From Pseudomonadota bacterium (GTDB lineage Bacteria > Pseudomonadota > Alphaproteobacteria > Micavibrionales > UBA2020): a stretch of DNA of 64,000 nt. The stretch spans positions 1 to 64,000 of the forward strand of contig JAJZTA010000012.1 in the NCBI GenBank assembly GCA_021849295.1, written 5' to 3'. Position 1 is the stretch's first letter; every line of letters begins with the position of its first letter. Below the pieces are notes generated by a model, which made no database searches, was not told where the DNA came from, and was given only the letters and a program-made list of their open reading frames with translations. Shown piece after piece: positions 35,167-54,318 of this stretch. The translations under genes and the position numbers were made by a program.

Positions 35167-35285
35167 GCTACTAACTTCAAATTACATCACGAAATTATCA
35201 ATAAATATCAAACGGTTAAGATTGTTAATCTTTCCGTATTATACTTACACATGTGTTACACACTTTTCGTTGATGGAGTGTACCC

Positions 35286-36701: not shown

Positions 36702-36789
36702 AAATGGGCGCTTTACCGCTTATAAAAGCCCCTGCCGCGCCTTTTTGCGGCGTCCTACATTTCTATCATCAACCGTAGAAATTCTAGCT

Positions 36790-36879
36790 GGACAGGTGGC
36801 CGAGTGGTTGAAGGCACCGCTCTCGAAAAGCGGCAAGGGTGTAAGCCCTTCGTGAGTTCGAATCTCACCCTGTCCGCCA
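36790..36879 (+). tRNA. tRNA-Ser(CGA), intact, CCA encoded, inside the island
   Basis: Acceptor GGACAGG/CCTGTCC, anticodon stem CCGCT-CTCGAAA-AGCGG, long variable arm, GTTCGAATC T-loop, GCCA. Confidence 0.93.
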
Positions 36880-37052
36880 TTTCCCAACGCCCCTTTTATT
36901 TCTTCGCAGCCGATGAACAACGGCGCGGTTGCCGTGGAGCATAAAGGTCGGACGACCGGCTGCTTCACGGACGCAATGACAGATGAACGTCTGTCATGGT
37001 GGCGTGAAACGCCCTGAACAGGGCGTAGCCAGCGCACTAACTTCTTTATCCC

Positions 37053-37718
37053 TTAGCGTTTTAGCGTCCATGACGCGAAGGCGGTCGCCGCAAACGCGCC
37101 CGCCAGTTGCGCGAGGATAAACGGCAATGCGTCCTGCGGTCTGATGCCCGCGAAAGTATCGCTCATGGCGCGGGCGATGGTGACGGCGGGATTGGCGAAG
37201 GACGTTGAAGCCGTGAACCAGTAAGCCGCCGTAATGTAAGCGGCAACAGCGAGGGGAACGGCGGAAAGGTTTTGCCGGACGCAAAACCAGATCACCATAA
37301 GAAGGCCGAAGGTGGCGACAAACTCGCTCCACCATTGGGAGCCGCCTGTGCGAATTTTAGTGGAGGCGAACAGAAATGTTTCGCCAAACATCAAATGAGC
37401 GAAGGCAACGCCCAAGATTGCCGTAAGTACCTGAACACCGATATAAGCCGCAGCATCCCGCTTCGTGATTTTTCCCTGCGCCGCCATGCACAGTGTCACG
37501 GCGGGATTGAAATGCGCTCCTGAAAGCGGGGCAAAAATCAATATCAGCACCGCCAGGGCGCAGCCTGTGGCAAGGCTGTTGGCGAGAAGCGCGATAGCGG
37601 TATTACCCGCCGCCAGCTTTTCGCCCATGATACCGGAGCCGATAACAGCCATGAGCAGGAAAGCTGTTCCCATGCCTTCGGCGGCCAGCCGCCGCGATAA
37701 CGGAACCGGCTTGCTCAT
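37053..37718 (-). CDS. MIP-family aquaporin, ars-operon associated (AqpS-like)
   Basis: GAHFNPAVTLCMAA and SFANPAVTIARAMSDTFAGI NPA motifs; overlaps arsC. Confidence 0.85.
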   Translation of the reverse strand: MSKPVPLSRRLAAEGMGTAFLLMAVIGSGIMGEKLAAGNTAIALLANSLATGCALAVLILIFAPLSGAHFNPAVTLCMAAQGKITKRDAAAYIGVQVLTAILGVAFAHLMFGETFLFASTKIRTGGSQWWSEFVATFGLLMVIWFCVRQNLSAVPLAVAAYITAAYWFTASTSFANPAVTIARAMSDTFAGIRPQDALPFILAQLAGAFAATAFASWTLKR

Positions 37719-38212
37719 GAAATCGTCTCCCCGATTGTTTTGAGGTGCTTGGCAAGTTCCTGCTTATCTAGCCCAGCAGGAAGGCGCAGCAGCGCCTTAA
37801 TACGCGCCTCAAGGATCGCGTAGAAATTCTCGAAAGCCGCCATGATTTCCTCGTCCGTGCCGGTGGCATGAGCGGGGTCGGGAACGCCCCAATGCGCCTT
37901 GACAGGCGCACCGAAGAAAACTGGACATGCTTCACCCGCTGCGTTGTCGCAGACGGTAATCACAATGTCGATCGGCGTATTCGCAAATTCATCCCATGAC
38001 TTGCTGCGATAACCGGAAGTCGGGATACCCTTGGATTGCAGCAAGGCAAGGCTCTTCGGATGCACCGTGCCCGTGGGCTTGCTTCCCGCGCTTACTGCAT
38101 GGAAGCGGCCTTTCCCCAAGTGGTTCAAAGCGGCCTCTGCCATGATGGAGCGGCAGGAGTTGCCCGTGCAAAGGATGAGAACTTTCTGAGGCGAAGTCAT
38201 TAGGGGCAGCAT
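37715..38212 (-). CDS. arsC: Arsenate reductase, low-MW phosphatase type
   Basis: VLILCTGNSCRSIMAEAAL (CX5R); GVPDPAHATGTDEEIM. Confidence 0.9.
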   Translation of the reverse strand: MLPLMTSPQKVLILCTGNSCRSIMAEAALNHLGKGRFHAVSAGSKPTGTVHPKSLALLQSKGIPTSGYRSKSWDEFANTPIDIVITVCDNAAGEACPVFFGAPVKAHWGVPDPAHATGTDEEIMAAFENFYAILEARIKALLRLPAGLDKQELAKHLKTIGETIS

Positions 38213-38664
38213 CCTTTAGCCGAGGCCGGGTTATCGCAGCAGCCGGAGGCTTGTTCTTCGGGAGCGCAACAGCCGGAATCCTGCGGCTTCGCCGCCTTGA
38301 AGATTTCCGCATCTTCCATTGTGCGGTAGGTTTCCCAAGGGATTCCGGCGGGGTCATGCACCCATGACTTTTCAGAGCGGGCGTAGCAACAGACCGTTTC
38401 GCCCTCGTCAACGACCGCCAAATCCGCTTTCTTCATGCGTTCGCGCAACTCGGAAAGCTCGCTTTCCTCGTCCACCTGTATCCCAAGGTGGTTCACGCCC
38501 GTTTCCGCTCGTGTCGAAATGGCAAAGTTTACATGGGGATTGTCGAGCATCCACTTGGCATAGTCGGGTTTCTGTTTGATGGGTTCCGTGCCGAATAACG
38601 CGCTGTAGAACCGGACAGACTGGTCAAGGTTTTCGACACCCACATGGATGTGCAGCCGTTTCAT
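38200..38664 (-). CDS. arsI: ArsI/CadI-family VOC protein (candidate C-As lyase)
   Basis: MKRLHIHVGVENLDQSVRFYSALFG; VNHLGIQV; vicinal Cys TVCCYARSEKSWVHDPAGIPWETY; Cys-pair tail GCCAPEEQASGCCDNPASAKGCC. Confidence 0.82.
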   Translation of the reverse strand: MKRLHIHVGVENLDQSVRFYSALFGTEPIKQKPDYAKWMLDNPHVNFAISTRAETGVNHLGIQVDEESELSELRERMKKADLAVVDEGETVCCYARSEKSWVHDPAGIPWETYRTMEDAEIFKAAKPQDSGCCAPEEQASGCCDNPASAKGCCP

Positions 38665-39038
38665 GATTTCTTCTCCTTCTTGGCTGGAACGCAGCAGTTC
38701 GAAAGTTCGATCACGCTGCACCCTTTCTTTTTATCGTTGCGGATACTGGCAAATTCGACGCTGCAACAGTCTTCGACCATGAAGCGGATAAGGCCAGTAA
38801 AGAACTCGAAATTGGCGGTATAGATGATCGAGCGCCCCTCTCGGCGCGGTATCACCAGTCCCGCATTGCTCATGTGGGAAAGGTGGAAGGACATTGTATT
38901 CGCCGGGATTCCCAGCTTTTCGCTCAAACTCCCGGCGGGGGCGCCCCCTGTGCCATGTTCCACCAGCAGGCGGAACACCTTAAGGCGGGTTTCCTGAGAC
39001 AATGCGTCAAACGCTATAACTGCTTCTTGTATATCCAT
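38661..39038 (-). CDS. arsR: ArsR-family repressor
   Basis: FDALSQETRLKVFRLLVEHGTGGAPAGSLSEKLGIPANTMSFHLSHMSNAGLV. Confidence 0.9.
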   Translation of the reverse strand: MDIQEAVIAFDALSQETRLKVFRLLVEHGTGGAPAGSLSEKLGIPANTMSFHLSHMSNAGLVIPRREGRSIIYTANFEFFTGLIRFMVEDCCSVEFASIRNDKKKGCSVIELSNCCVPAKKEKKS

Positions 39039-39040
39039 AC

Positions 39041-39056
39041 TTCCAGAATATTGGAA
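39041..39056. promoter_or_regulatory. Candidate ArsR operator
   Basis: TTCCA-GAATAT-TGGAA inverted repeat immediately upstream of arsR. Confidence 0.5.
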
Positions 39057-39126
39057 ATATACCGATTCTGTCAAGGGGCATGAATCCGAAAGGTGCGCGG
39101 GATAGCGCACCTTTCGTCGTGAGCCT

Positions 39127-39327
39127 CTAAAAGCGCGGCCCGCGAGGCTTCAACGCTCGTTTGCGCTGAAGCACGCGCTGAATGTTTTCCAGCGTCATCG
39201 TCGCCAGCGGGCAATCCGCCGCCGCCAGATTGCGGCGGGAGAGATCGTTCAGTATCGCGTTGTACTTCTGGCGCAGCTCCATTTCGTTCAAGTGTTCGAG
39301 TTCCTGCGTCGTGATGATGTACGTCAT
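39127..39327 (-). CDS. Small hypothetical protein
   Basis: 66 aa ORF with coding-like composition. Confidence 0.4.
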   Translation of the reverse strand: MTYIITTQELEHLNEMELRQKYNAILNDLSRRNLAAADCPLATMTLENIQRVLQRKRALKPRGPRF

Positions 39328-39968
39328 GTTTCGCTCCTGTCTTTCTGACCGCGACCATCGCGGCCTTCATGACGCGGACTGGTCAGCGCGTTCGACTGAC
39401 AGCACTTGACGGAACGAAGAGGAGGAATCGCAGCGGAGCGGCAGCGACGACCGATTTGCGGGCATTAAGGCGAACCGATGCCAGGATGCGAATGAAAAGG
39501 CCGTGTAGCGAGGCAGAAGGCAGGAGCAAAGAAACTGCGGACTTCATCTCCCTTTGACGCAATTAAGGAAGCGAGAACAGCAACGGAATGAGAGCCAGCA
39601 ACAAGGCAGATAGTGAATGATAAGACCGAAACGGCGGAAGAATTGACCGCCCAAGACAAAGACGCTCAGGAAAATATACAAGCGAGCAGCTGGGCAAATG
39701 TGCTGCAAGCAGCGCACCGCGCTTTACTCGCAGGCTCACGAAGCCAACTGCGTTGTCTTCGCCCTTCGGGTTTCAATCGCTTTCGCAAGAAATGCGGATG
39801 CAAATTTTGAGTGGGGGCAGCCCCCGACAACCGCCAAGCACAAACTGAGCCAAGAAAATTGCGTTTAGAGTCGAGGCAATGCAAGCGCATCGCCTCCAAA
39901 ACGACAGATTTTCTTGCTCACTTTCTGCTTGTCTGTCGCCTCCCCCGTTGCGCTCGCCGCTTGGCGTT

Positions 39969-39988
39969 CAGGTCGCATACGCGACCTG
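39969..39988. promoter_or_regulatory. Perfect hairpin/palindrome upstream of the ardA gene group
   Basis: CAGGTCGC-ATAC-GCGACCTG. Confidence 0.5.
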
Positions 39989-40013
39989 CAAACAACCAAG
40001 AAGGAGAGCAGAA

Positions 40014-40247
40014 ATGACTAAGAAAACGATGAAATGGAACGGACTCACGCTCGAAATCAGCGCAGAGCCGAACGCCCTTCTTTCCCGCCTTCAAGGGGAA
40101 GAAGTAACCAGCCTGAAAGTGACCAGCGCCGCGAGCGCGAAGCCTCTTATCAATGACACCTTTGCCGCGTCTCTCATTCAGACGGCAGGGGGAGCCGCGA
40201 ACTTTGTTGATGTGATGCTTTCCGCAGAACTTCAACAGGCGGCGTAA
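40014..40247 (+). CDS. Small hypothetical protein upstream of ardA
   Basis: RBS AAGGAGAG then ATG; MTKKTMKWNGLTLEISAEPNALLSRLQGEEV... Confidence 0.6.
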   Translation: MTKKTMKWNGLTLEISAEPNALLSRLQGEEVTSLKVTSAASAKPLINDTFAASLIQTAGGAANFVDVMLSAELQQAA

Positions 40248-40257
40248 GGGGGCGGTC

Positions 40258-40374
40258 ATGCAATCAGAACCTTACAAAAATCCGGACTTCTGGCAGCAAG
40301 AGCCAATCCACGGCGACTTCAACCGGGCTTCAGACTTCGATACCTGGCTGGATAAACTTTTCGGGGAGGAATAA
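40258..40374 (+). CDS. 38-aa small ORF between 40014 ORF and ardA
   Basis: MQSEPYKNPDFWQQEPIHGDFNRASDFDTWLDKLFGEE, stop 2 nt before ardA start. Confidence 0.5.
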   Translation: MQSEPYKNPDFWQQEPIHGDFNRASDFDTWLDKLFGEE

Positions 40375-40376
40375 CC

Positions 40377-40889
40377 ATGACACAGCTTTACGCACAGCCC
40401 TATGATATTTCCGCGACGGGGTTTTTCTTCGATACGCGGGAAGAATACGAGCAAAAAGCGGCGAAGAACCGCAATCATTACGGCCAGCCCGTTGAGGAAT
40501 ACGAACTGCAATTCATCGATGGAGAGGACATTGATTGCCAGTTGTTCAAAGCCCTGAGCGTATGTCAGGCGACCTTTGGAAAGTATCTGGAAGCCTGCGA
40601 CGAGTGGAGTGAGGACGAGAAGCGGAAAATCATTATCGCCGTTGGCGAATGTGGCTACAGCTACAGCTTCAACTTCGACAAAAACAGTCCGGACGACTTT
40701 GAGGTGGACATTTACGAACTGGACAGCCTCAAGGAATTGGCGGAGCAGTTTGTTGACGAAGGGCTTTTCGGCCCAATCCCCAAGGCTATCGAGAACTATC
40801 TGGACTATGACGCGATAGCCCGCGACCTGGGGCTTGACTATTCGGAAATCACTATCGCCGGGACAAACCTGATTTACAGATGCAGCTAG
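40377..40889 (+). CDS. ardA: ArdA-family antirestriction protein
   Basis: Acidic; ELAEQFVDEGLFGPIPKAIENYLDYDAIARDLGLDYSEI matches the ArdA C-terminal pattern. Confidence 0.85.
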   Translation: MTQLYAQPYDISATGFFFDTREEYEQKAAKNRNHYGQPVEEYELQFIDGEDIDCQLFKALSVCQATFGKYLEACDEWSEDEKRKIIIAVGECGYSYSFNFDKNSPDDFEVDIYELDSLKELAEQFVDEGLFGPIPKAIENYLDYDAIARDLGLDYSEITIAGTNLIYRCS

Positions 40890-40962
40890 AAAGGGCGAAG
40901 GCCGCCGCCGGCAGAGAACCGGCGGCGGCCTTCGCGTCCTATAAACTGAAAGACGAAAAAGA

Positions 40963-41418
40963 TTAGGCGACTTTTTTCTTGAGCTTCTTCTCGCTTCTGT
41001 CTCGTCTATGCGCATGGCATTTGCCGTGATCGTAGAGAACTTCGATAACCCGACAATCCGCGATCCTGCCGGAGCCACCGTGCTCCAGCATACGCATAAG
41101 TTCAGCGCGAAGAATCTTGAGACTGGCCAGCCGTTCTTCCACCGCCGCAAGATGATTTCGGGCGATGGTATCGACGGTCTGACAGGAGGCCTTGTGGTCG
41201 CCCGAAACTGATAGAATCTCTCTAATCTGGTCAATTTCAAAGCCAAGTTCCCGTGCGTGACGGACAAATGAAAGACGTTTCACGTCGTTGTCTGAATAAC
41301 GGCGCTGCTTGCCCGAAGTGCGGTCAGGCTTCGGGAGCAGTTTAATATTTTCATAATATCTAATCGTTTCTATGCGGACGCCGCTTTGCGCCGAGAGTTC
41401 ACCAATCGTTAAAAACAT
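40963..41418 (-). CDS. MerR-family heavy-metal regulator (ZntR/CadR type)
   Basis: TIGELSAQSGVRIETIRYYENIKLLPKPDRTSGKQRRYSDNDVKRLSFVRHARELGF; conserved Cys; divergent from CDF. Confidence 0.88.
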   Translation of the reverse strand: MFLTIGELSAQSGVRIETIRYYENIKLLPKPDRTSGKQRRYSDNDVKRLSFVRHARELGFEIDQIREILSVSGDHKASCQTVDTIARNHLAAVEERLASLKILRAELMRMLEHGGSGRIADCRVIEVLYDHGKCHAHRRDRSEKKLKKKVA

Positions 41419-41419
41419 C

Positions 41420-41450
41420 TTGAACCTCTAGTGACTATAGGTCGTAACAT
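41420..41450 (+). promoter_or_regulatory. MerR-type promoter/operator with 19 bp spacer
   Basis: TTGAAC-N19-TAACAT with ACCTCTAGTGACTATAGGT dyad in the spacer. Confidence 0.75.
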
Positions 41451-41473
41451 GGCTCAAATTTGAGGAAGAGTCC

Positions 41474-42484
41474 ATGCCTAAACATACACATGACGACCAT
41501 GATCACAAACACGATCACAAAAGCGGCCAAAACCAAAAGCCTGAAAAGCATGATCACGATGACGCCCATAAACATGGGCATCATGGACATCATCATGTGC
41601 CAAAGAATTTTGACCGCAGCTTCGCCATTGGAGCGTTCCTGAACTTCGCCTTCGTAGGAGCGGAGCTGTTTTACGGGTACATGGCACATTCGTTGGCTTT
41701 GGTGGCCGATGCCGTACATAATTTCTCTGATGTGATAGGGCTGCTACTGGCTTGGGGTGCGGCTTGGCTTGGACGCCTAAGCCCCACCGATGAACGCACC
41801 TATGGTTTTCGTGGCGCGTCGATTCTGGCGGGGTTGGCAAATTCGGGCATGCTGTTCCTCGTAACGGGCGGAATTATCATCGAGTCCGTCCAGCGCCTCG
41901 CGCACCCGCAGCCGCTTGCGACGATGACAATGGTGTATGTCGCGTCCATCGGCATCGTTATCAACTTTGTCACGGCTATGCTGTTCTGGCGCGGGCAGAA
42001 AGATGACCTGAACATTCGCGCTGCGTTTATTCACATGATGGGGGATGCGGCGATAGCCTTTGGCGTCGTAATCACGGCGCTCATCATCCGCATGATGGGA
42101 GCCGGCTGGCAATGGCTTGACCCGGCCAGCGGCCTTGTGATTTCGACCATTATCGTTATCGGATGCTGGGATGTCGCCAAGGAAGCGCTGCACCTGTCCC
42201 TCGACGGAGTTCCCAAACACATCGACCGTCGTGGCATCATCGTCTTTTTGCACGGATTACCGGGAGTGACGGGCATGCACGACCTGCATATTTGGGCGAT
42301 GAGCACAACCGAAACCGCGCTGACGGTTCATCTTATGCGGCCCAAGATTCCCGCTGACGACAATTTCTTGAATGATGTCGCGTTTGAACTGAAATCGAAT
42401 TTCAAAATTGACCACGCCACAATCCAGATTGAAGTGGGCAACGCAAGGGAAGCTTGCAGGCTGGCGCCGAAGGAAGTGATATAG
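41474..42484 (+). CDS. CDF-family cation efflux protein (CzcD-like)
   Basis: His-rich N-terminus; LVADAVHNFSDVIGLLLAWGA; SLDGVPKHIDR. Confidence 0.92.
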   Translation: MPKHTHDDHDHKHDHKSGQNQKPEKHDHDDAHKHGHHGHHHVPKNFDRSFAIGAFLNFAFVGAELFYGYMAHSLALVADAVHNFSDVIGLLLAWGAAWLGRLSPTDERTYGFRGASILAGLANSGMLFLVTGGIIIESVQRLAHPQPLATMTMVYVASIGIVINFVTAMLFWRGQKDDLNIRAAFIHMMGDAAIAFGVVITALIIRMMGAGWQWLDPASGLVISTIIVIGCWDVAKEALHLSLDGVPKHIDRRGIIVFLHGLPGVTGMHDLHIWAMSTTETALTVHLMRPKIPADDNFLNDVAFELKSNFKIDHATIQIEVGNAREACRLAPKEVI

Positions 42485-42554
42485 CCCAACAAGGTAGGTT
42501 CGGCGCAACGCAATGGCGCTTCCCGCCGACGTGGAATCGTGCTATCATTATCAT

Positions 42555-42947
42555 ATGTGTGCGAATGTTATAGTCAGAGCGAAGCCGACCGTCTCCGAAA
42601 GCTGCGCGATTCCCTGCTTCAAGCAGGGACTTGTGAAAAAGCTGCAAGAGGAAATGCCTCAAGACGAGGCATTGGAGGATATGCGGGCGGTTTTTGCGGC
42701 GCTGGCCGACAAAGCCCGCCTTAAAATCCTCTATTCCCTCAAGGACGGGCAGGAACTTTGCGTGTGCGATGTGGCCCATGTCGTCGGGACGACCGTTTCC
42801 ACGGCTTCCCACCACCTACGCAAGCTGCGGGATTTGAAGCTTCTGAAATACCGCAACGACGGCAAGATGGCCTATTACTCGCTGAAAAGCGAAATTGCCG
42901 CCCAGCTTGTCAGGGAAGCCCTTAAATCTGTCGGGAGAAAGAAATGA
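42555..42947 (+). CDS. ArsR/SmtB-family metalloregulator with CadC-type ELCVCD motif
   Basis: LADKARLKILYSLKDGQELCVCDVAHVVGTTVSTASHHLRKLRDLKLL. Confidence 0.9.
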   Translation: MCANVIVRAKPTVSESCAIPCFKQGLVKKLQEEMPQDEALEDMRAVFAALADKARLKILYSLKDGQELCVCDVAHVVGTTVSTASHHLRKLRDLKLLKYRNDGKMAYYSLKSEIAAQLVREALKSVGRKK

Positions 42948-44128
42948 CTTCCGACAAGGACGCCGAAGACAAGGCATTGCAGATCGTAACGCAGCAACTG
43001 GCCGAAGCCGTCGCCGCCGCGAAGTGCCACAAATGCGGCTGCCTTCAGCAGACCGTGGAAGCTCTTTCCACCACAGACGCCGGAAAGGGCGCACTTGCGG
43101 AGCAGCTTTCGAAGGCAAGGGCGGTATTCCAGCCCAAGAAATACGATTGCCTTGGCTGCGCGGTATGCTGGCCTGCGGTCGCTGCAAATGCTTTTGCCGA
43201 GGCTTTTCCGGCGGCGAGTGAAGGGCTTGACCTATGCCCGACCGAGGAGCCGGAAGTACGCAAGGGCTGGCCTCCTTTGCCGGGGGATTACCATGTTGTC
43301 CGTTCGCGCGCCCCTGTCGCGGTTTGCACCCTGAACAGCGGCGGCCTTGCGGCGCGGCTGAACGAGCTTTCGCCGGAAGGTCTGTCTATCGCCGGAACAC
43401 TGCATACGGAAAACCTCGGGATTGAGCGCATCATTAAAAATGTCGTTGCCAATCCCCATTTACGGTTTCTCATCCTGTGCGGGGAGGACACACAACAGGC
43501 TATCGGGCATTTGCCGGGGCAAACGCTGCACAGCCTGTTTCTGAACGGCGTTGACGAGCGCCAGCGCATTATCGGCGCGAAAGGCAAGCGGCCTTTTCTC
43601 AAGAACGTGACGCGGGAAGAAATTGACGCTTTCCTGAAGCAGATTGAACTTGTCCCGCGTATCGGTGAAATGGACGAAGCCGTTATCGTCAAGGAAATCG
43701 GCGAATTGTTTAAGCGCGACCCCGGCCCCGTTGAACACTGCGTCGCGGCCAAGGCTGTGGAAACGGTGCAGGCATCGGAGCAGAAGCAGCTCAAACTGGA
43801 CAAAGCCGGATACCTTGTCGTGTACCCCGACGCACGGCGCAACCTGATTGTCATGGAACACTACACCAATCAGGGGGTGCTGGATTGCATCATCGAGGGC
43901 ACGACGACAGCTGCGCTTTACAGCACGGCGATTGCACGGGGGTTTTTGACCGTGCTTGACCATGCCGCCTATATCGGGGCGGAACTAGCGAAGGCGGAAG
44001 CCAGCCTGTTGACCGGAGGGTCCTATGTGCAGGACAAGGCCGCCGGAGAAATTGCCAAGCCGCAGGAAAAATCCTGCGGCACTTCCTGCGAAACAGGCAA
44101 TAAGGGGGAAAAATGCGGGGAAAAGTAG
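42944..44128 (+). CDS. MtrA-like (tetrahydromethanopterin S-methyltransferase subunit A-like) + DUF4346 protein with Cys-rich N-terminal domain
   Basis: CHKCGC...CLGCAVCWP; YHVVRSRAPVAVCTLNSGGLA...TENLGIERIIKNVVANPHLRFLILCGED...GHLPGQTLHSLFLNGVDE; LDKAGYLVVYPDARRNLIVMEHYTN. Confidence 0.75.
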   Translation: MTSDKDAEDKALQIVTQQLAEAVAAAKCHKCGCLQQTVEALSTTDAGKGALAEQLSKARAVFQPKKYDCLGCAVCWPAVAANAFAEAFPAASEGLDLCPTEEPEVRKGWPPLPGDYHVVRSRAPVAVCTLNSGGLAARLNELSPEGLSIAGTLHTENLGIERIIKNVVANPHLRFLILCGEDTQQAIGHLPGQTLHSLFLNGVDERQRIIGAKGKRPFLKNVTREEIDAFLKQIELVPRIGEMDEAVIVKEIGELFKRDPGPVEHCVAAKAVETVQASEQKQLKLDKAGYLVVYPDARRNLIVMEHYTNQGVLDCIIEGTTTAALYSTAIARGFLTVLDHAAYIGAELAKAEASLLTGGSYVQDKAAGEIAKPQEKSCGTSCETGNKGEKCGEK

Positions 44129-44502
44129 TCGGATTGATTTGCGTGATAGCCATTTCTTTCGGCATCATTATTTACAAGCAGACACTGACCGCAGGGGCTT
44201 CCCAACCAGAACCCAGCAAGCCGTGGGTTCTTTTGGTGGCCGAATTACGCGAAGCGGACGAGGCCCATGACTCCTGCGCAGATATTATTCGGCTAGTAAG
44301 AGAGGCACAGGCGCGAGGAATCAAGACCGAAGAACTGACGCCGCAGAGCGATTCTCCGCTTCTGAGCAAATATCACGTCCTGATCATTCCGACAGTCGTC
44401 ATTGTCGGAGGCGACGGGCAAGAGAAGGCGAGGTTTGAAGGCGAAGACGAAAAGACCGTCAAGGCTCTGAAAGAGCAGCTTTCAAAGTTGAAAGAGGGTT
44501 AG
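44113..44502 (+). CDS. Membrane-anchored thioredoxin-fold-like protein lacking CxxC
   Basis: N-terminal TM; WVLLVAELREADEAHDSCADII; YHVLIIPTVVIVGGDG (cis-Pro region). Confidence 0.6.
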   Translation: MRGKVVGLICVIAISFGIIIYKQTLTAGASQPEPSKPWVLLVAELREADEAHDSCADIIRLVREAQARGIKTEELTPQSDSPLLSKYHVLIIPTVVIVGGDGQEKARFEGEDEKTVKALKEQLSKLKEG

Positions 44503-45165
44503 GTGGACATTGCAGCCCAGCTACATGACGCTTTGAAAGGCGGCACTCTGCTGGCGTTTCCGCTGTCGCTCATTGGTGGGCTTATCGCTGGTTTCAACCC
44601 CTGCTGCCTTGCGCTTTATCCCGCTGCCGCCGCCGCCTGCTGCACAGGGACGGCTTGCAGCCCGAGGCGCAGTTTTTTACATGCCCTAGCCTTTCTTTTG
44701 GGAATGGCATTAGCTCTGTCCCTGTTGGGACTGGCGGCGGGCATCGTGGGCCGGATAACGGGTCCAGGTATAGTCTGGCGCTACCTGATTGCGGTCATCC
44801 CGATCACTATGGGATTAAACCTCTTGGGGTGGATATCGCTGCCACTAGCAAGACTAGCGAAATTCACCGCGCGGGGCGGTGGCGCGTTTGGAACTGGCTT
44901 TGCCCTGTCCCTCGTCATCGGCCCCTGCGGAACCCCGCTGCTGGCGGCGGTTTTGTCGTATGCCGCCTACAAGGGAGGGCTGATTTATGGGGCGCTATTG
45001 CTATTTCTCTACGGTATCGGCGCTGGCACACCCATGTTGCTGGTCGGAGTTTTTGCGGGACACATCACGCAAAAGATGGAACTCGCTGGCCTTAAACATT
45101 GGGTTGATGGCGCGGCGGGCGTATTCCTCATACTGCTAGGCTTTTATTTGCTTTGGATTGCCTGA
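44503..45165 (+). CDS. CcdA-family thiol-disulfide transmembrane protein
   Basis: GGLIAGFNPCCLALYPAAAAACC; LSLVIGPCGTPLLAAVLSYAAY; 6 TM segments. Confidence 0.85.
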   Translation: MDIAAQLHDALKGGTLLAFPLSLIGGLIAGFNPCCLALYPAAAAACCTGTACSPRRSFLHALAFLLGMALALSLLGLAAGIVGRITGPGIVWRYLIAVIPITMGLNLLGWISLPLARLAKFTARGGGAFGTGFALSLVIGPCGTPLLAAVLSYAAYKGGLIYGALLLFLYGIGAGTPMLLVGVFAGHITQKMELAGLKHWVDGAAGVFLILLGFYLLWIA

Positions 45166-45170
45166 TTCCG

Positions 45171-45509
45171 CTAGTGCTGCTGGACTTCATCAATGAGTGC
45201 CGCGCGAACTTCTTCCTCACTCCAATAGAGTCTTTTCGGTTTTCCCTTCATGAGCGTTGCGCGTTTTTTTCGAATCACCGCACCGACTTTATGAGGCTTG
45301 AGGTCAGCAGCGACATTGCTTTTGGTTATCTCGGCTTTCAGGACTTTCAGCGACACAAAATCCCCGTCTATGGCGGTTACCTCGCCCGTAACCTCCTGTT
45401 CGCCCCAAGGGTGACGCTGCTTTCGTCGCCGCTTTGGAGCCCACATCGCCTCTTTCCACTTCAAGACGTCGCTCTCCAAGAAGCCATCCCCTGATTGTTT
45501 CCAAGTCAT
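45171..45509 (-). CDS. Hypothetical protein next to the relaxase
   Basis: 112 aa ORF overlapping the relaxase stop by 4 nt. Confidence 0.5.
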   Translation of the reverse strand: MTWKQSGDGFLESDVLKWKEAMWAPKRRRKQRHPWGEQEVTGEVTAIDGDFVSLKVLKAEITKSNVAADLKPHKVGAVIRKKRATLMKGKPKRLYWSEEEVRAALIDEVQQH

Positions 45510-47452
45510 GTTTTGCTCCTGTCTATCTTTGCGGAGTTAAATCGGATTGTCGCATTGGTCGGCAGCGTCGGCATAGCCGCCGACGTGCCGCCGCCGACCG
45601 GAGGCAGCAGGCCCGACCGCGCAAAGGCTTCATGCACTTCAATGACGCATGCGCGGAGATTGGGCGCGGCGGTCGGCGGGTTTATGGGTGGGCGGCGCGA
45701 AACGTCGCTTTCGTTAGCAGGCGAGTTCAGTATGGACACGACCAGCGCGACGTTATCGCGTCGCTGAACCGTCTGGATGAAGGCGGGTTCATCCAGACGT
45801 TTGTCAGGCGGCGGGCTCATGACTGTGATTTTCCACGGCGGGAGGCCGTTGAGCGAATAGCTCATATCCCGAATGAGCCCATAGAATTGCCTGTTGGCCT
45901 CTATCTGCCTTCGTTGCTCCTCCATCTTCTGCTGCAATTCGGCCTGGCGCCTGAGCAGGTCGGCAAGCTCGGCCTGTTTCGCAGCGACTTCCCTGACCCG
46001 TTCTTCCTCTTTCCTGTCTTGTGCGACCCTCTCAAGCGCCTTGATTTGCAGCGCGGTCGCCGCCCGCTCGATCAGCGAGCGGATTCTCGCCCGCATTTCA
46101 TCGGAGAGAAGGTTATTCTCAAGGGAGGCTTGCAACATCGAAATGTCGCCCGACAGGACCGACAGGCGGGCCTCGATGACGGCAAGCTGATCCACCAGCG
46201 GCGGCGCGGCCGATTTTGGCGGCGGCGGCGGTTCCGCCGCCGTGGACACGTATTGCGCCATTTCCCGGCGCAGGCGGTAAAGTTCGTAGCGGTGTTCTTC
46301 GCGGTAGAAAACAGCCGCTTTTTGCAGCTTTTGCCGTTCTTCGAGCTGCTGGCGGATGAGCGCCTGCAGCTCTTTCCTGTCCCGCTCAAGACAGGCTTTT
46401 GTTTCCGCCTCGTTTACCTTGCGGATTCTCTGATATTCCCCGCTAACACGCTCCCAAATCCCCTTAACGCCTTTTCCAAGGCGACGCGAACGCGCCTTGG
46501 TTTCCTCTATCCAGCGTTTTTGCTGCTTGTCCAACAGTTCAGCCCGCTCCTTGCGGTGGTGGGCGGTCATGGCGCGGATTTCCTGCACCAGCGGCGCGCG
46601 CATTTCCTTGGCCTTTGCCTTGGCCGCTTCGATGAAGCGTTCAAGGTTGGCGGTCATGCGCGCGGTGATAAAGCCCTTGGCCTGTTCGGCACTCGGCAGA
46701 GTTTCCGTAGCGCCTATGCGGGCTTTCAGATCGCGGGTGCCGAGGTCGAGCCAGCGCGTCAGGGAATAAACCCCGCCCTTGACGTCGATGGCGACGTAGC
46801 CACGGCGATCACCCCGCGCCAGAAAGAAGCCATTTTCTTCCAAAGCGCGGGCGAAAGTCGCCCGCGTGTCCGTCTGCTCCCAGCAGCGGCGGAACATGGC
46901 TTTAAGCGCCTGCGGGTCTTCGACCAGCCGCACCGCCTGCCGGTATTCCTCCCGCGTCAGGTGCTGGGGGCTGCGTTCTTCGCCTTTTTTCATGCCCTTT
47001 GGCATCTCCCAGCCATGCTCCAGATAGAGCTGGCGGGATACGTCCATCAATTTTCGTTTAAAGAAGTCCATATCAATAGCAACCAGCCGCTTGCCATTGA
47101 ACTGGATGCGCGACCAGACGGCATGGCAATGCCGCCGCCCGTTCTTTTCGTGGAACACGATGGCGCGGGGCTGATCGGTCAGACCCAATTTCCGCTCGAC
47201 CTCATGGATGGCCGATTCAAAGTCCTCAATCGGCACATCCTCGTTTTCCGGGGGATTGAGGCTGAGGGAGAACAGGAATTTCTCGCAGCGGGAGCCCTTG
47301 GAAACGGCTAAAGCCTCTTCCAGGGCCCCCGCCAGATCGTCGGCCATAAAGCCGCGAATATCATGCACTGCAACATGCTCGTTATCGTCCCCGTTCAGGA
47401 GGTGTTTGGCGAGTTCCGCCGAGCGCCCGCGCTTGCTGCCGTAAAGGATCAT
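45506..47452 (-). CDS. Relaxase/mobilization nuclease domain protein
   Basis: HEKNGRRHCHAVWSRIQFNGKRLVAIDMDFFKRKL (HxH relaxase motif III), long helical C-terminus. Confidence 0.88.
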   Translation of the reverse strand: MILYGSKRGRSAELAKHLLNGDDNEHVAVHDIRGFMADDLAGALEEALAVSKGSRCEKFLFSLSLNPPENEDVPIEDFESAIHEVERKLGLTDQPRAIVFHEKNGRRHCHAVWSRIQFNGKRLVAIDMDFFKRKLMDVSRQLYLEHGWEMPKGMKKGEERSPQHLTREEYRQAVRLVEDPQALKAMFRRCWEQTDTRATFARALEENGFFLARGDRRGYVAIDVKGGVYSLTRWLDLGTRDLKARIGATETLPSAEQAKGFITARMTANLERFIEAAKAKAKEMRAPLVQEIRAMTAHHRKERAELLDKQQKRWIEETKARSRRLGKGVKGIWERVSGEYQRIRKVNEAETKACLERDRKELQALIRQQLEERQKLQKAAVFYREEHRYELYRLRREMAQYVSTAAEPPPPPKSAAPPLVDQLAVIEARLSVLSGDISMLQASLENNLLSDEMRARIRSLIERAATALQIKALERVAQDRKEEERVREVAAKQAELADLLRRQAELQQKMEEQRRQIEANRQFYGLIRDMSYSLNGLPPWKITVMSPPPDKRLDEPAFIQTVQRRDNVALVVSILNSPANESDVSRRPPINPPTAAPNLRACVIEVHEAFARSGLLPPVGGGTSAAMPTLPTNATIRFNSAKIDRSKT

Positions 47453-47456
47453 GCCA

Positions 47457-47891
47457 TCATCCTCCGCCTTCGTCGGATGATGGCCTTTCCGGCAGATGGC
47501 CGAGAGCCTGCGTTAACGATTGCCGCATTTCCAGCAGCGCACGACAAGCCTCTTGGAGGGCTTGTTCGGTTTCAGGGGTAACAGGCAGGGAGCCGCTATG
47601 GGCGGCTTTGGTTAACTGGTTAACATTCTGCGGGAGCCTTGAGCGGCCCAGCGCATCCAGTACCTGGCCCAAAGCTTCGGCGTCCCTGACAGGCCTGCGG
47701 AAGACCCGTTTGCGGGCGTCCGGCACCGCGAAGAGGCAATGCCGGATGTAGTCGCCTAAAGGCAGCGGGCCTGCCTGGCTGTCCAGCAGGGCCAGTTCGG
47801 TTTCGGTCAGCCGGAAGGAAACCACCCGGCCATACCGACCGACCTTGCGGGCGGCATCGACAGGCGCAGATATATCGCTATCCCCGGTCAT
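47457..47891 (-). CDS. MobC-type relaxosome accessory protein
   Basis: VSFRLTETELALLDSQAGPLPLGDYIRHCLF...LDALGRSRLPQNVNQLTKAAHSGSLP. Confidence 0.8.
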   Translation of the reverse strand: MTGDSDISAPVDAARKVGRYGRVVSFRLTETELALLDSQAGPLPLGDYIRHCLFAVPDARKRVFRRPVRDAEALGQVLDALGRSRLPQNVNQLTKAAHSGSLPVTPETEQALQEACRALLEMRQSLTQALGHLPERPSSDEGGG

Positions 47892-48380
47892 GCGTCCCCC
47901 CCGGACGATGGACGGTGAAACAAAATTACTCAGCTATGAATGTCGGGAGGAGAAATAAATTATCGCTCGCTTACAATGCACTCCATCCCATACTTCAAGC
48001 GTAGCGCCTGTTCATTAACCGGGCTTTAACGTCCCATCGAAAGGGAAGCACAGAGTTGCGGATTGCTGCGGTGCAGCGTCCTTGACGAGCAGCACTAAAA
48101 TCCGGTACAGAAAAAGCGTAGTAAGAACGTGAATCGAAACCGTGATTTTACCCTTGTAAAACGCGGTTTTTCCTTCACTATCACCCCTGCGAATCGCGGG
48201 AAATAATATTGCAAAAAATTTTAGAATCCATACTGCACCGCCATCTCGCGGTGCAGGCAAGATGTGTTCAGTAGTACAAAACCGCCGGTTTTCGTCCTCC
48301 AGAACCTATCTTGGCAAGAGAGGGGGAAATGCCGCAGCAATCGCCGCCTGTTTTCCGCCCTCCCGTTGCATCCCTCCCCG

Positions 48381-48451
48381 GATATCCACGCCAATGCTTC
48401 AGACGAACGCTCTTAATGGTCGCGTTGTCCTGTCGTATTGGCGTGGATATC
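48381..48451. repeat. 15 bp perfect inverted repeat (candidate oriT or RNA hairpin)
   Basis: GATATCCACGCCAAT (48381-48395) / ATTGGCGTGGATATC (48437-48451). Confidence 0.75.
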
Positions 48452-48479
48452 GTGCGCCGCCGCTGCCGCGATCGGCGCA

Positions 48480-48569
48480 GGCATGGGCCAGGACGAAAAC
48501 GACAGGATGCGCCAGCCAATACTCCCGCATTGTCCGACTGTGCATCCCGCCCTCGTCCTGGCTCATGCC
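48480..48569. repeat. 17 bp inverted repeat with one mismatch and a nested 6 bp stem
   Basis: GGCATGGGCCAGGACGA / TCGTCCTGGCTCATGCC; nested GGATGC / GCATCC. Confidence 0.75.
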
Positions 48570-48885
48570 ATTGGCACTCCCGCACCGCACTCCGCGACGG
48601 CCGCCTTGCCAAGCGGTCATCGCTGGGGTTGCTCCCGTGCCAGTGGCGCCGGCGGCCGACAAGCCGCCGCGCCTTGATGTGGCCTGCCGGCCATGCACCG
48701 TAATGGCCGATGCAATGCGCCATTCAGGGAGCCTTCGTGCTGCCCCGAAACCCCATGACCAAGGAAGGCAGACTATGGTTCTCCGTTCCGGCCAACTTAT
48801 TAATTTTGATATCTGAGCTAGTTCTCAAATTGTGGTATTCTGCTATGCTTCCATCAAAAGTTAACCGCAGCTATAGGAGCGAAAA

Positions 48886-49479
48886 ATGAATGAATCGGAT
48901 CAAGCAAAAGCGATCCTTGAATCCACGCTTCGCCGTCAGGAAATGCACTGGAGTTCTCTCGCCTCGGATATTCGCCTAAGCAACGGCGTCGCAGCAGACA
49001 TTGGAATAGATGCTTTAAAAACGGCCATTCTCATTAACGCGGGGGCGATAGTCGCGCTTTTAGCATTTGCTGGACAATTGTGGAATAAAGACGAAGGTCG
49101 CAATGTAGCTTGGCAGGTGCTTAGTTCAGGAAAGCCGTTTGTACTAGGTTTAGTTTGTGCTGCTGTAGCTTTCGCCGTCGCCTATTTTTATCAGTCTTTC
49201 GTTACCGTTGTCTTCCAACATGCGCTTGCCAAAGTATCTGATGGTGGTGACAAGTTGAAGCCGAATTCCAGCTTTACCTGTGCGGCTAAAATTACTGCCG
49301 TGCTCATGATTGGCTTAGCTTTTGGCGCAGTCGGCTGTTTTATCGATGGGTCGTTTGCCGTAGTAGATACTGTGCAAGTTATGAGCGTTAAAGCTGAACA
49401 AAAAACGGAATCAGTGACAACACCTTCCGACTCACAGCCTCTCAAAACTAAAAATCACGCCGTGAAACCGGCGAAGTAA
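48886..49479 (+). CDS. Hypothetical membrane protein
   Basis: Three to four hydrophobic segments in 197 aa. Confidence 0.55.
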   Translation: MNESDQAKAILESTLRRQEMHWSSLASDIRLSNGVAADIGIDALKTAILINAGAIVALLAFAGQLWNKDEGRNVAWQVLSSGKPFVLGLVCAAVAFAVAYFYQSFVTVVFQHALAKVSDGGDKLKPNSSFTCAAKITAVLMIGLAFGAVGCFIDGSFAVVDTVQVMSVKAEQKTESVTTPSDSQPLKTKNHAVKPAK

Positions 49480-49505
49480 CCAGAATATTACTGAAAGGAA
49501 AGGAG

Positions 49506-49913
49506 TTACGCGAAGAAGCTAAGAATCCATCGGTAGATGCGGGAGAACAATCCATCTTTTGTTTGATACATAGCTTGATAATATGCGCGCCTTCTCTCTT
49601 CCTCATGCGCTCTGCCTGCAATGACTTGTTCTTCTGTCCACTGACCGGACGGCATAATACCGCCTCTATAAATCCAATAATGTGACCGACATTTCTGCTG
49701 CCAATTTCCGATGGAGGGGTTCAATGATGGCCCCGCGGGAGTTTCATCAAATGCCCATTCTGTCGGCCCCAAGGGCGTTCTAATCTTGGCTCCGCAACCA
49801 CAAGCACATAGATGAACTGCTATCGCAAATTCTTCGGAAACATAAAGTACACCTTCCGTCAATTCTTTGGGCATGTACTGTACGCGCTGCAGCTTAATTT
49901 TCTTCGTTTTCAA
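49506..49913 (-). CDS. DUF6527-like zinc-binding protein
   Basis: HLCACGCGAKIRTPLGPTEWAFD...SLNPSIGNWQQKCRSHYWIYRGGI. Confidence 0.7.
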   Translation of the reverse strand: MKTKKIKLQRVQYMPKELTEGVLYVSEEFAIAVHLCACGCGAKIRTPLGPTEWAFDETPAGPSLNPSIGNWQQKCRSHYWIYRGGIMPSGQWTEEQVIAGRAHEEERRRAYYQAMYQTKDGLFSRIYRWILSFFA

Positions 49914-51099
49914 ATTTCCCCACTATTTTCAGATCGCTGATTTCGAGGAGCAGGTGGTACGGGGAGTTTTCGTCCAGATAGAACCCCCTCAACTGCTTAA
50001 ATTTTATTACTGCCAATGCGGCGTTCAACGCGTTAAGTTCACCAATTTGTATGTTTGTGCGATACATATTTTCGGGGGCATCGAAAAGCTCTGCGAGCTT
50101 TTGATCACGAATTTTTGCACCGTTCTCTGCAGAATAGTAGGTCGCGCGCATCATGCCATTTATGGGCCCCAGCTTGCGATTTAACCCCATCCCGGCATCG
50201 ATAAATGGGATTTTTTTGGAAATTAGCAGGTCAAAAATTTCGGCTCGTGACGTACCTTTGTCGACGAAAACGAAAGCAAAGGTTACACCGTCCAACTCCT
50301 CACCACATGACGCGTCAATGAACTTTGGCTTAATTGAGAGGCCATGACGGAAGTTATCATATCGTGCAGCATAAATTTCTGCTTTTTGTTTGCCTAATTC
50401 TTCCTGTCGGAGCATCCCCGGCGAACGAAACGAGTTATGAATGTAAAACCAGTCGGCGTCAAAAGCCCTGATTTCCCGCACCGGAGTTTTTACGAGGAAA
50501 TCTAAACCGTAAGAACCTGTGCCCCCAAGGCCGATCACCGCGACTACATCGTTTTCAAACTTCTTGGAGAGATCTGAAATTTCAGCTCTGCTGGTGAGCG
50601 AGTCTGTGAATTTGAAAACAGACTTATCTTCCGCGCCTTTAGATGTTCGCGACGTGTAGGGGTTGGCATTGTGAAGCTCGATTGCGGGCCCGGAAATTAT
50701 CCCTAAATAGCTTGTAATTTTTTCAAAGTGGTCTGCAAATTTTCCGACCGGCTTGCCGTTTACGCATGGTTTGTTTGAGAACGAGCGCTGAACGACGACA
50801 TCTTTATTATACTCGCTGAGTGCGAGCTTATGCTCGCCCCCACCGAGGTTCGGTATCGGCTTTCCATCAAGGCCATGCGGATGTGCCCCCGCGAAAAGTA
50901 TTTGATGATCCTCCTGAATCACCTTGTTTCCGTCAACTGGAACGAGCTTGGAGACTATCGCTCCCCATAGCAAATCTCGCTTTTCGTTCAGATAAGGAAT
51001 ATCCCGAATGATAAGGAGGTTGCTGTCGAAGCCGACAGCAAACCCCTTCTCAACAAGACGGTTCAAATCTTCGTTATGACTGACCAGTTTCTGAAACAC
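49894..51099 (-). CDS. ThiF/E1-like adenylyltransferase with family-specific N-terminal domain
   Basis: VVAVIGLGGTGSYGLDFLVKTPVREIRAFDADWFYIHNSFRSPGM (Rossmann/ThiF); GTG start overlapping the ubiquitin-like ORF. Confidence 0.85.
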   Translation of the reverse strand: MFQKLVSHNEDLNRLVEKGFAVGFDSNLLIIRDIPYLNEKRDLLWGAIVSKLVPVDGNKVIQEDHQILFAGAHPHGLDGKPIPNLGGGEHKLALSEYNKDVVVQRSFSNKPCVNGKPVGKFADHFEKITSYLGIISGPAIELHNANPYTSRTSKGAEDKSVFKFTDSLTSRAEISDLSKKFENDVVAVIGLGGTGSYGLDFLVKTPVREIRAFDADWFYIHNSFRSPGMLRQEELGKQKAEIYAARYDNFRHGLSIKPKFIDASCGEELDGVTFAFVFVDKGTSRAEIFDLLISKKIPFIDAGMGLNRKLGPINGMMRATYYSAENGAKIRDQKLAELFDAPENMYRTNIQIGELNALNAALAVIKFKQLRGFYLDENSPYHLLLEISDLKIVGKFENEEN

Positions 51100-51352
51100 T
51101 GAATTTCATCCCTTCTTTGATTTTGACAGATGCGCCGGGCGAGAGCGTGCCTTCGGGCTTATTGCCTTGGCCGTTCGTGTACTTGACCGAATAAGTGATG
51201 TTGGGATTTTGGTCGTAGTTGGGCACTTCCAGCTTCACGACCTGGGCGTACGAGATATTGGTGTTTTTCTCCCATTCGTGCGGCGTAGCGTTAACGTAGA
51301 TAGTGACCAGCTTCTCATCCTTCGCTGCGGCCTTAGCGATCGACTTGAATTG
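51074..51352 (-). CDS. Multiubiquitin-family ubiquitin-like protein (absent from ORF track; no canonical start codon in frame)
   Basis: Manual translation: SIAKAAAKDEKLVTIYVNATPHEWEKNTNISYAQVVKLEVPNYDQNPNITYSVKYTNGQGNKPEGTLSPGASVKIKEGMKFSVSETGQS*. Confidence 0.8.
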   Translation of the reverse strand, partial: QFKSIAKAAAKDEKLVTIYVNATPHEWEKNTNISYAQVVKLEVPNYDQNPNITYSVKYTNGQGNKPEGTLSPGASVKIKEGMKFSVSETGQS

Positions 51353-51510
51353 TCAATATAGGAAACATATTAATATTAGAAGTTAATAAACCACTAATTC
51401 TGAATGTAACAAATGTAAATGAATCAGTCACTTGCAAAATAAATTAATATACTGTTAATGAATTGTTTGTATAATTGACAATTAGAGTTCAACTGCTGTA
51501 GAGTCCTGTC

Positions 51511-51906
51511 ATGCGATTCGAAGATGTATATGCCGAACTCGGTGGGGTCATTAAGGCCGCTAGAGAAGCCGCCGGATTGACCCAAGATGAGCTTGCGAAG
51601 CTCATAAACTTGTCCCGTGCGTCAATTGCGAACATCGAAACAGGTCGTCAGAAAGTATTTCTGCATCAGCTGTATATGCTGGCGCATCATCTTGACGTAC
51701 CGGTGATCGACCTGCTCCCCAAGCAGAGTTCCTTTGGAAGCTGCCTTCCCTCAGACTTATCAGATGAACAAAAATTTTGGGCAGAGTCCGTCCTGGCATC
51801 ATTCGCGGGTCCCGAACAAACAATGCAATCCGCGCTCAATGACTCCGACTTGAACACTGATGAAAAAGAGTGGGCTGCATCAATTTTAAGGTCAGCAAAT
51901 GGCTAA
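51511..51906 (+). CDS. XRE-family HTH regulator
   Basis: IKAAREAAGLTQDELAKLINLSRASIANIETGRQKVFLHQLYMLA. Confidence 0.9.
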   Translation: MRFEDVYAELGGVIKAAREAAGLTQDELAKLINLSRASIANIETGRQKVFLHQLYMLAHHLDVPVIDLLPKQSSFGSCLPSDLSDEQKFWAESVLASFAGPEQTMQSALNDSDLNTDEKEWAASILRSANG

Positions 51907-52456
51907 TGCAGTTAAAGAAGCTGAAAAACTTTTAGAACGGCTGGGAATGAAAGACAAAATCCCGGTCGACGTGATGGAAATTGCGCGCGCGCTAGGAGCT
52001 AAAGTCGTTTTAAAAGCCTTCGACGGCGAGGACGACCTAAGCGGTATGCTCTTTCAAGACAACAATCAAATCATCATCGGCGTAAACGCCAATCATCATC
52101 CGAACCGGCGACGATTCACTGTGGCGCACGAAATCGGGCATCTCGTTCTTCACAAGCACATATTTGAAGGCCGAGTGCATGTAGATAAAGCATTTGAAGT
52201 AAAGATGTTCAGAGATGGCCGCTCTAAACAAGGCAAAGATTTCATTGAAATCCAAGCGAACAGATTTGCGGCAGAGCTGTTAATGCCGACTGAATCTTTG
52301 AAGAGGGAACTCAAAGACAAGTATGTTGACGTCGAGAATGATGATGAAGTAAAGGCTTTGGCAAATAAGTACGAAGTCAGTGCTCACGCAATGTCGATCA
52401 AATTGTTTAATACCGCAAGCGACTTATTCGAAACACAGGAAAGTCTCCCGCTTTAG
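51899..52456 (+). CDS. ImmA/IrrE-family metallopeptidase
   Basis: RRFTVAHEIGHLVLHKH (HExxH); EIQANRFAAELLMP. Confidence 0.9.
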   Translation: MANAVKEAEKLLERLGMKDKIPVDVMEIARALGAKVVLKAFDGEDDLSGMLFQDNNQIIIGVNANHHPNRRRFTVAHEIGHLVLHKHIFEGRVHVDKAFEVKMFRDGRSKQGKDFIEIQANRFAAELLMPTESLKRELKDKYVDVENDDEVKALANKYEVSAHAMSIKLFNTASDLFETQESLPL

Positions 52457-52461
52457 TTACA

Positions 52462-53373
52462 ATGACCCTAGCGCATCGAAAATTGGATTTATTGCAAAAA
52501 ATGTCCTTGGAGCCATTGCGAGAAATGGCTGCATATGAAGCACTATGGAAGAACAATACTGTTAGCTTTAAAAAAATGGCCGAGCTATTCGCGGAACACC
52601 CAGGCCAACGGCCTTCCGATTTAGTATCGGAGGAATTAATCAATACCTTCACGACGTATCTGAAGGAGATTTTAGAAAGCGAAGAGACCGTTAATACTAA
52701 TGTCCTGATGAATTGCACCTATGAATACCCGCAGAAGCTGCGAGATGCGCAATACCCTGTTGAGATGCTTTATTATCAGGGAAACCTTGACTTGATTTAC
52801 AACCGCTCCGTTGCAATTGTCGGGACTAGGAACCCCACTAAAGAGGGGCTTACTCGTACCGCGCAACTAGTGAAACATTTGGTGAAGGACAATATCACGG
52901 TCGTATCTGGCCTCGCAAAAGGGATTGACACACAGGCACACACCACGGCTATTGAGAATGGCGGCCAGACGATCGCCGTGATAGGAACGCCGCTAAACGA
53001 GGCTTACCCAAAGGAAAATAAAGATCTTCAAAAGAAGATTGCAGAGAACCATTTGCTGATCAGCCAAATACCCTTTTGGCGTTATAAACAGCAGAACTAT
53101 AAACTGAATAGATTTTTCTTTCCTGAGAGAAACAAGACGATGTCGGCATTGACCGACGCAACAGTTATTATTGAAGCTGGCGAAACATCGGGTACGCTCA
53201 TACAAGCGCAAGCCGCAATCTATCAGAAACGGCCGCTTTTCATTCTCGAAAGCTGCTTTCAAAATAAATCCATTTCGTGGCCGGCCAAGTTCGAAAAGGA
53301 AGGCGCCATTCGAGTTAAAAGCTATGACGATATTAGAAAGGCGCTAAATCTAGGTGCCGCAGCGACTTCTTAG
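52462..53373 (+). CDS. DprA/Smf-like Rossmann protein
   Basis: VAIVGTRNPTKEGLTRTAQLVKHL; VVSGLAKGIDTQAHTTAIENGGQTIAVIGTPLNEAYPKEN; FFFPERNKTMSALTDATVIIEAGETSGTLIQAQAA. Confidence 0.85.
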   Translation: MTLAHRKLDLLQKMSLEPLREMAAYEALWKNNTVSFKKMAELFAEHPGQRPSDLVSEELINTFTTYLKEILESEETVNTNVLMNCTYEYPQKLRDAQYPVEMLYYQGNLDLIYNRSVAIVGTRNPTKEGLTRTAQLVKHLVKDNITVVSGLAKGIDTQAHTTAIENGGQTIAVIGTPLNEAYPKENKDLQKKIAENHLLISQIPFWRYKQQNYKLNRFFFPERNKTMSALTDATVIIEAGETSGTLIQAQAAIYQKRPLFILESCFQNKSISWPAKFEKEGAIRVKSYDDIRKALNLGAAATS

Positions 53374-54007
53374 AATAGACGATTTGGTGAGGGGCCAACA
53401 CACGTACCTCGAAGAAGAGGACGTTTGTTACTATTTGAGAGAATATACGGCTCACACCGGCTATTCGCACAGTGAGACAAACAATCTCATAAGCAATTTT
53501 AAAAAGAAAATGGACAAACGAGGCTCGGCGCAATGGCGTTATAAGGGCCAGGCTATCGATAGAGTAGCCGCGGATTTCCGCGCCTGCTTACCTCGCGAGC
53601 TGCTCGAAGAGTGGACGCTGGTTCCTATCCCGCCGTCCAAAGCAAAAACTGACCCACTTTACGACGATCGTATGTCTCAAGTTCTAGCTAAAATGTCGAT
53701 GGGTTACGACGTCGATATTCGAGAATTGGTGACGCTCGATGAGAGCATGGAGGCGTCCCACACGACAACCAACCGCCTGCCTCCTAACGAGTTAAAGGAG
53801 CATCTTAGTATAGATGAAGAGCATAGCGACCCGGAGCCCAATGTAATTATCTTGTTTGATGATGTGCTGACGACCGGATCGCACTTCAAAGCCTGCAAGG
53901 CGCTGTTGGAAGAAAGATTTCCCAACGCCGAGATCGCTGGAATGTTTGTCGCCCGGAGAGCAATTCCAGACGCAGCTGATGACTTTGATGATATCGATGA
54001 TATCTAA
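53354..54007 (+). CDS. Phosphoribosyltransferase (ComF-like PRPP motif)
   Basis: NVIILFDDVLTTGSHFKACKALLEERF; VPIPPSKAKTDPLYDDRM. Confidence 0.82.
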   Translation: MPQRLLRIDDLVRGQHTYLEEEDVCYYLREYTAHTGYSHSETNNLISNFKKKMDKRGSAQWRYKGQAIDRVAADFRACLPRELLEEWTLVPIPPSKAKTDPLYDDRMSQVLAKMSMGYDVDIRELVTLDESMEASHTTTNRLPPNELKEHLSIDEEHSDPEPNVIILFDDVLTTGSHFKACKALLEERFPNAEIAGMFVARRAIPDAADDFDDIDDI

Positions 54008-54109
54008 GTCACTTCTCAAAAAAAAAGCGCTTGCAGTCTTACACACTTTCTTACACACTCCGTGAAGGACAGAAAAAGATCGTTATAACTCAATAGGATA
54101 ATTTGCCAT

Positions 54110-54173
54110 GCTAGTCTCGAAAACTAGTATAGGTGTAAGCCTATCGAGGGTTCGAATCCCTCCCTGTCCGCCA
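54110..54173 (+). other. attR: 3' half of disrupted tRNA-Ser(CGA)
   Basis: GCTAGTCTCGAAAACTAG...GGTTCGAATCCCTCCCTGTCCGCCA; completes the 35128-35166 5' half. Confidence 0.85.
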
Positions 54174-54318
54174 TATTTTCTTGTATTTTCAGCATTGTTT
54201 TTTAAAGGCTTCAGGCGCCACTCGTCCAAGAAACAGTACATGTAATTTTATATTTAAATTCATATAGATAGTACTTACATATCTCTTGCACGCTTTGGGG
54301 ATATAAGTTGAATTTAAT

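Follow-up and report, generated by a model that had tools for sequence, protein, structure and literature searches.

Bil and type II CBASS are bacterial immune systems of E1-driven ubiquitin-like protein (Ubl) chemistry that use E2 and JAB partners together with a catalytic Cys, and Bub operons are known targets of the CapH-CapP switch. Bub operons have been described by Gong et al. 2025 and Ye et al. 2026 (as cited in PMC13373217) and are represented by PDB entries 9ea4, 9ea5, 9ea8, 9eae, and 9eav. According to PMC13373217, a paper of 2026, CapW or CapH+CapP adjoins 219 of 544 Bub operons, and phage protection by these operons has yet to be demonstrated. A study of multiubiquitin cassettes from 2016 found HTH/COG2856 pairs adjoining 70% of PF14452 proteins and labelled them toxin-antitoxin (PMC4963859). 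Earlier still, Iyer, Burroughs, and Aravind 2006 (PMC1779556, Table 1, row 6e) listed polyUbl operons in which the E1 carries a 'domain X' replacing JAB and is accompanied by a metal-binding protein 'Y' with the signature C-x(3)-C-x(35-38)-H-x(2)-C; one species had a solo Ubl, and the row lumps E2/JAB forms with domain-X forms.

The window (the whole stretch of DNA analyzed, 64,000 nucleotides) contains an operon that, judged by its sequence, is Bub-type and of the E2-less, JAB-less DUF6791 kind. Its three genes lie head to tail on the minus strand, with overlaps of 26 bp (Ubl/E1) and 20 bp (E1/DUF6527) and uninterrupted translations of 92 (51074-51352), 401 (49897-51099), and 135 residues (49509-49913). 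The three overlapping frames proposed in the preliminary description are thus open, and its naming of the products as Ubl, ThiF/E1, and DUF6527 was borne out by Pfam matches that all exceed the curated cut-offs. The Ubl protein contains one Ubl domain, not several, and its matches to the Multi_ubiq profile and to the profile of the solved structure 9cd2 agree with the beta-grasp fold ascribed to it. The E1 also matches NCBIfam entry PRK06153.1-2 (5.6e-182), titled 'hypothetical protein'. In an alignment of 22 homologues, residues C36, C38, C40, C75, S77, and H78 of DUF6527 were invariant; its fold had no PDB match, nor was a credible sequence relative found in the PDB. Codon positions indicated purifying selection on all three genes. 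Coordinates of these and the neighboring features are given in the table.

Table. Features of the operon, its divergent neighbors, and the surrounding island (positions within the window).
Feature	Position	Strand	Evidence or remark
tRNA-Ser(CGA)	about 36790..36880	+	ARAGORN; island begins on the left with its 3' part (36838-36880)
MobA/VirD2-like relaxase	45506..47452	-	PF03432 3.8e-14
DUF6527 zinc-site-like protein	49506..49913	-	TTG start; PF20137 1e-21
E1-like adenylating enzyme, N-terminal DUF6791 + ThiF Rossmann domain	49894..51099	-	GTG start; PF20590 2.5e-37; PF00899 3.3e-10
BubA-like single-domain ubiquitin-like protein (likely start)	51074..51340	-	Multi_ubiq PF14452 2.5e-14; 9cd2 profile 8e-25; C-terminus ...SVSETGQS-stop
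Divergent promoter/operator region, Ubl gene to capH	51353..51510	.	Inverted repeat AATTGT-N11-ACAATT at 51461-51483
CapH-like HTH repressor	51511..51906	+	PADLOC capH 4e-12
CapP-like ImmA/IrrE protease, HEIGH (HExxH) motif	51899..52456	+	PADLOC capP 2.9e-37
ShosA (DprA-like)	52462..53373	+	PADLOC ShosA 9e-103; 5 bp past capP
ShosT (phosphoribosyltransferase-like), overlapping shosA	53354..54007	+	PADLOC ShosT 2.2e-51
tRNA-Ser tail, right island boundary	54132..54174	+	37/43 identical to 36838-36880; next best in window 24/43

The window operon has in common with the Bub operons a Multi_ubiq Ubl, the same E1 motifs and Tyr, and a CapH+CapP neighbor, but it is without BubB (Prok-E2_E) and BubC (JAB), carries DUF6791 in place of JAB on the E1, and differs in the Ser end of its Ubl. 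That the operon has no separate E2 or JAB, as first proposed, held true: no Prok-E2_E match (BubB, PF14462) was found in its own genome, which is 88% complete, the JAB domain is missing from both the E1 and the operon, and the PF14464 matches of the genome sit on other contigs. Among the JAB-type loci of a 399-genome sample of the phylum, Multi_ubiq was fused or adjacent to Prok-E2_E and accompanied by a JAB-ThiF E1 and DUF6527, the last being shared by the window and the JAB-type loci examined; the proteins of one such locus match the solved Citrobacter BubB and BubCD. The E1-driven Ubl chemistry presumed for the window operon would also be shared with Bil and type II CBASS, although its resemblance to these is confined to weak ThiF-domain matches. 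Two loci (L090 and L092) combine Multi_ubiq, an E2-like protein, a JAB-ThiF-type E1, and DUF6527 with a kinase-like TCAD9/APH gene overlapping or adjoining the set; this gene was considered as a replacement for the E1 and rejected as an extra gene, since both loci also carry the JAB-ThiF-type E1.

In the window operon and in row 6e alike, the Ubl gene lies directly upstream of an E1 with a distinct N-terminal domain, a protein with a metal-binding signature follows downstream, and the spacing of the Y signature is close to that of C36/C40/C75/H78 in the window DUF6527; no essential difference was apparent. We infer that domain X is DUF6791 and that Y is DUF6527. The preliminary description spoke of a minimal version; that such a form is unusual was not supported. 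Ubl, E1, and DUF6527 together are what the DUF6791 family normally comprises, in print since 2006, and the window operon, with all three genes already annotated by NCBI, is an ordinary member. A dedicated study of the E2-less form was not found in the accessible literature.

DUF6791 was present in 9 genomes of the 399-genome sample, and all 8 of the unfragmented loci had adjacent Multi_ubiq and DUF6527 genes, so the co-location of the three genes in other genomes is established. The E1 was also present on 115 plasmid records ranging from Rhizobium to Acinetobacter and Spirosoma, where NCBI annotates adjoining multiubiquitin, ThiF, and DUF6527 proteins; searches of phage and E. coli collections gave no match. 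The nearest relative, at 67% identity, comes from another phylum (Paenibacillus), and the window groups in a clade of eight mostly single-Ubl systems (support 100/99), which makes horizontal transfer likely. Some variation in layout was observed: in L022, L075, L078, and L081 the regulator is separated from the Ubl gene by a small gene encoding DUF2188 or DUF1508, and on the Methylomonas plasmid (L081:5188-6912) a DUF6527 gene is apparently split by an IS256-family transposase gene.

Alignment of 22 DUF6791-E1s with five JAB-E1s revealed residues invariant in both sets (G190, T194, G195, D214, D216, R225, K239, D301, G303, and Y346), with D280 present in 21 of the former and all five of the latter. 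The window E1 keeps all motif residues. No Cys was invariant among the 22 DUF6791-E1 sequences, in contrast to a canonical E1 with its catalytic Cys. Y346 aligns with the Tyr at chain position 372 of BubCD; the JAMM Asp at chain position 106 is called D104 in the PDB entries, an offset of two, so the Tyr should be native Y370, and Tyr346 should on this numbering be the counterpart of the residue changed (Y370F) in the solved BubCD complex 9eav. By profile the E1 matches BubCD (5e-10) about as well as TcdA (3e-10). A model of the E1, of moderate confidence (pLDDT 71), gave Citrobacter BubCD (9eae/9ea5/9eav) as its best fold matches, with MccB and PaaA also among the top matches, in a PDB fold search whose hits were driven mainly by the ThiF domain. 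For DUF6791, the predicted succession of helices, a strand meander, a loop, and a further helix would be consistent with an E2/RWD fold. The domain was also considered as a divergent Bub E2, and this candidate was rejected after hhalign of the 22 DUF6791 sequences against five Prok-E2_E sequences returned nothing.

The Ubl does not end in Gly-Gly, as had been noticed, and closes instead on Ser. The motif [T/S]-x-x-S is terminal in 26 of 26 homologous loci, just past the E1 start, and the Ubl/E1 overlap is of the same kind in every one (26 bp in 25; in L079 the E1 starts one codon later), a pattern far beyond chance. The Ubl Ser codon shares its T with the wobble position of E1 codon 7 (N, S, D, or A); a C there would leave the E1 unchanged and turn the Ubl Ser into Pro. 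This wobble base is T in every locus, which points to selection acting on the terminal Ser of the Ubl and not on the E1. The constant overlap of the Ser-ended Ubl was overlooked in the preliminary description, as were the invariant Tyr346, the anomalous Ubl start, and CapH/CapP with Shosta.

The CapH+CapP pair diverges from the Ubl-E1-DUF6527 operon across an intergenic region in which promoter-like matches were at chance level (5 found, 3.9 expected). In many homologous loci the corresponding position is occupied by HTH and ImmA/IrrE genes or by WYL regulators; in some it is not. The window thus shares an adjacent HTH and ImmA/IrrE pair with the multiubiquitin cassettes of PMC4963859, with the difference that its pair matches the CapH/CapP regulator rather than a toxin. 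On the far side, capH-capP-shosA-shosT (51511-54007) probably form one operon; since capH-capP run into shosA-shosT with a 5-bp gap, a single repressor may serve two defence operons, one Bub-type and the other Shosta.

The assignment to a mobile island was sustained by a relaxase gene and by boundaries consisting of tRNA-Ser(CGA) and a tRNA-Ser tail. The island (36838-54174) spans 17.3 kb of lower G+C, and its cargo comprises metal/arsenic-type genes (as read from ORFs), the MobA-type relaxase, the operon, CapHP, and Shosta. It also includes, in a bacterial setting, a protein (42944-44128) with MtrA (methanopterin methyltransferase subunit A) and pterin-binding DUF4346 domains. A separate small element lies at 35127-36815. 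It holds an integrase-like gene (35286-36701), flanked by an exact 27-bp repeat that matches the 5' portion of tRNA-Ser(CGA).

Taken as a whole, the locus is explained best, and in our estimation somewhat more probably than otherwise, as a CapH/CapP-controlled tagging operon of the Bub type that dispenses with E2 and JAB, resides on an island, and has a stress or anti-phage outcome. The adjacent CapH repressor would keep the operon off until DNA damage, the presumed trigger for the window copy, activates CapP, which would then cleave CapH and turn the operon on. Conserved adenylation residues suggest that the E1 would adenylate the C-terminal Ser of the Ubl, which would probably be handed on through the invariant Tyr346 and not a catalytic Cys, and attached to a target, a step in which the E1's own DUF6791 domain would assist. 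DUF6527 may serve in attachment as a target adaptor or ligase-like factor. The result would be a stress or anti-phage response, for which a defence role is plausible from context. In a more specific form, held tentatively and with considerable doubt, this would be a Cys-free two-enzyme system in which the Ser-ended Ubl passes via the invariant Tyr, DUF6791 is a built-in E2-like domain, and DUF6527 is the target adaptor, making a separate E2, E3, and C-terminal processing unneeded. We know of no experiment showing conjugation by a DUF6791-type operon.

The main rival to E1-driven tagging is that a MccB/PaaA-like E1 modifies the Ubl's own C-terminus, yielding an adenylate, phosphoramidate, or small-molecule adduct, with the modified Ubl as effector or signal. 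An E1 free of conserved Cys, an operon without JAB in a genome without a Prok-E2_E match, a Ubl C-terminus that requires no trimming, and the presence of MccB and PaaA in the top fold matches would all suit such an enzyme. We nevertheless regard it as distinctly unlikely, as the best fold match is BubCD with its E2 and Ubl, with which the invariant E1 motif residues are held in common, and as the occurrence of DUF6527 in E2/JAB-containing operons suggests a shared tagging step. A ThiS-ThiF-like sulfur-carrier or cofactor pathway unrelated to conjugation would account for a ThiF-fold E1 with a beta-grasp partner, and is very improbable given a Ubl ending in Ser and not Gly-Gly, the absence of biosynthetic partners from the neighborhood, and a plasmid-borne, mobile distribution with CapHP-like or WYL regulators.

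A further rival reading is decay of this particular copy. The Ubl had been placed at 51074-51352, of which the open frame stands and the start does not: 51352 is merely the first codon past an upstream TGA (51355-51353), and the frame offers no ATG, GTG, or TTG ahead of codon 39, by which point the fold has already begun. The most likely candidate is an ATC (51340-51338), since ATC GCT AAG in the window corresponds to ATG GCT AAG in homologue L003; homologue Ubls begin just ahead of the first strand, and normal start codons are available in the other homologues read. No near-identical copies showing the start codon were found in the genomes of 57 relatives (by protein search), plasmids, or viral contigs, which leaves three possibilities: that ATC serves as a weak start, that the start codon was lost recently, or that the assembly is in error. 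Expression from the window copy may be weak, or the copy may be decaying. Loss by change of ATG to ATC, or by an indel parting the frame from an upstream ATG in another frame, would leave the operon poorly expressed or silent, an outcome we consider rather unlikely, because the Ubl, E1, and DUF6527 frames are all intact, as are the catalytic residues of the E1. Moreover, change between the Ubl gene and that of L002 by codon position (0.22/0.13/0.58 at positions 1/2/3) resembles that between pairs of intact homologues, suggesting selection at the protein level at least until recently.

The operon class is known, and its interest lies in the chemistry of the family, with its Ser-ended tag and no E2 enzyme. 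The invariant Ser end and the Tyr shared with BubCD make working without an E2 or catalytic Cys a question for point mutants, and CapHP, lying between the Bub-type operon and Shosta, offers a compact setting in which to test whether a single DNA-damage switch serves two systems.
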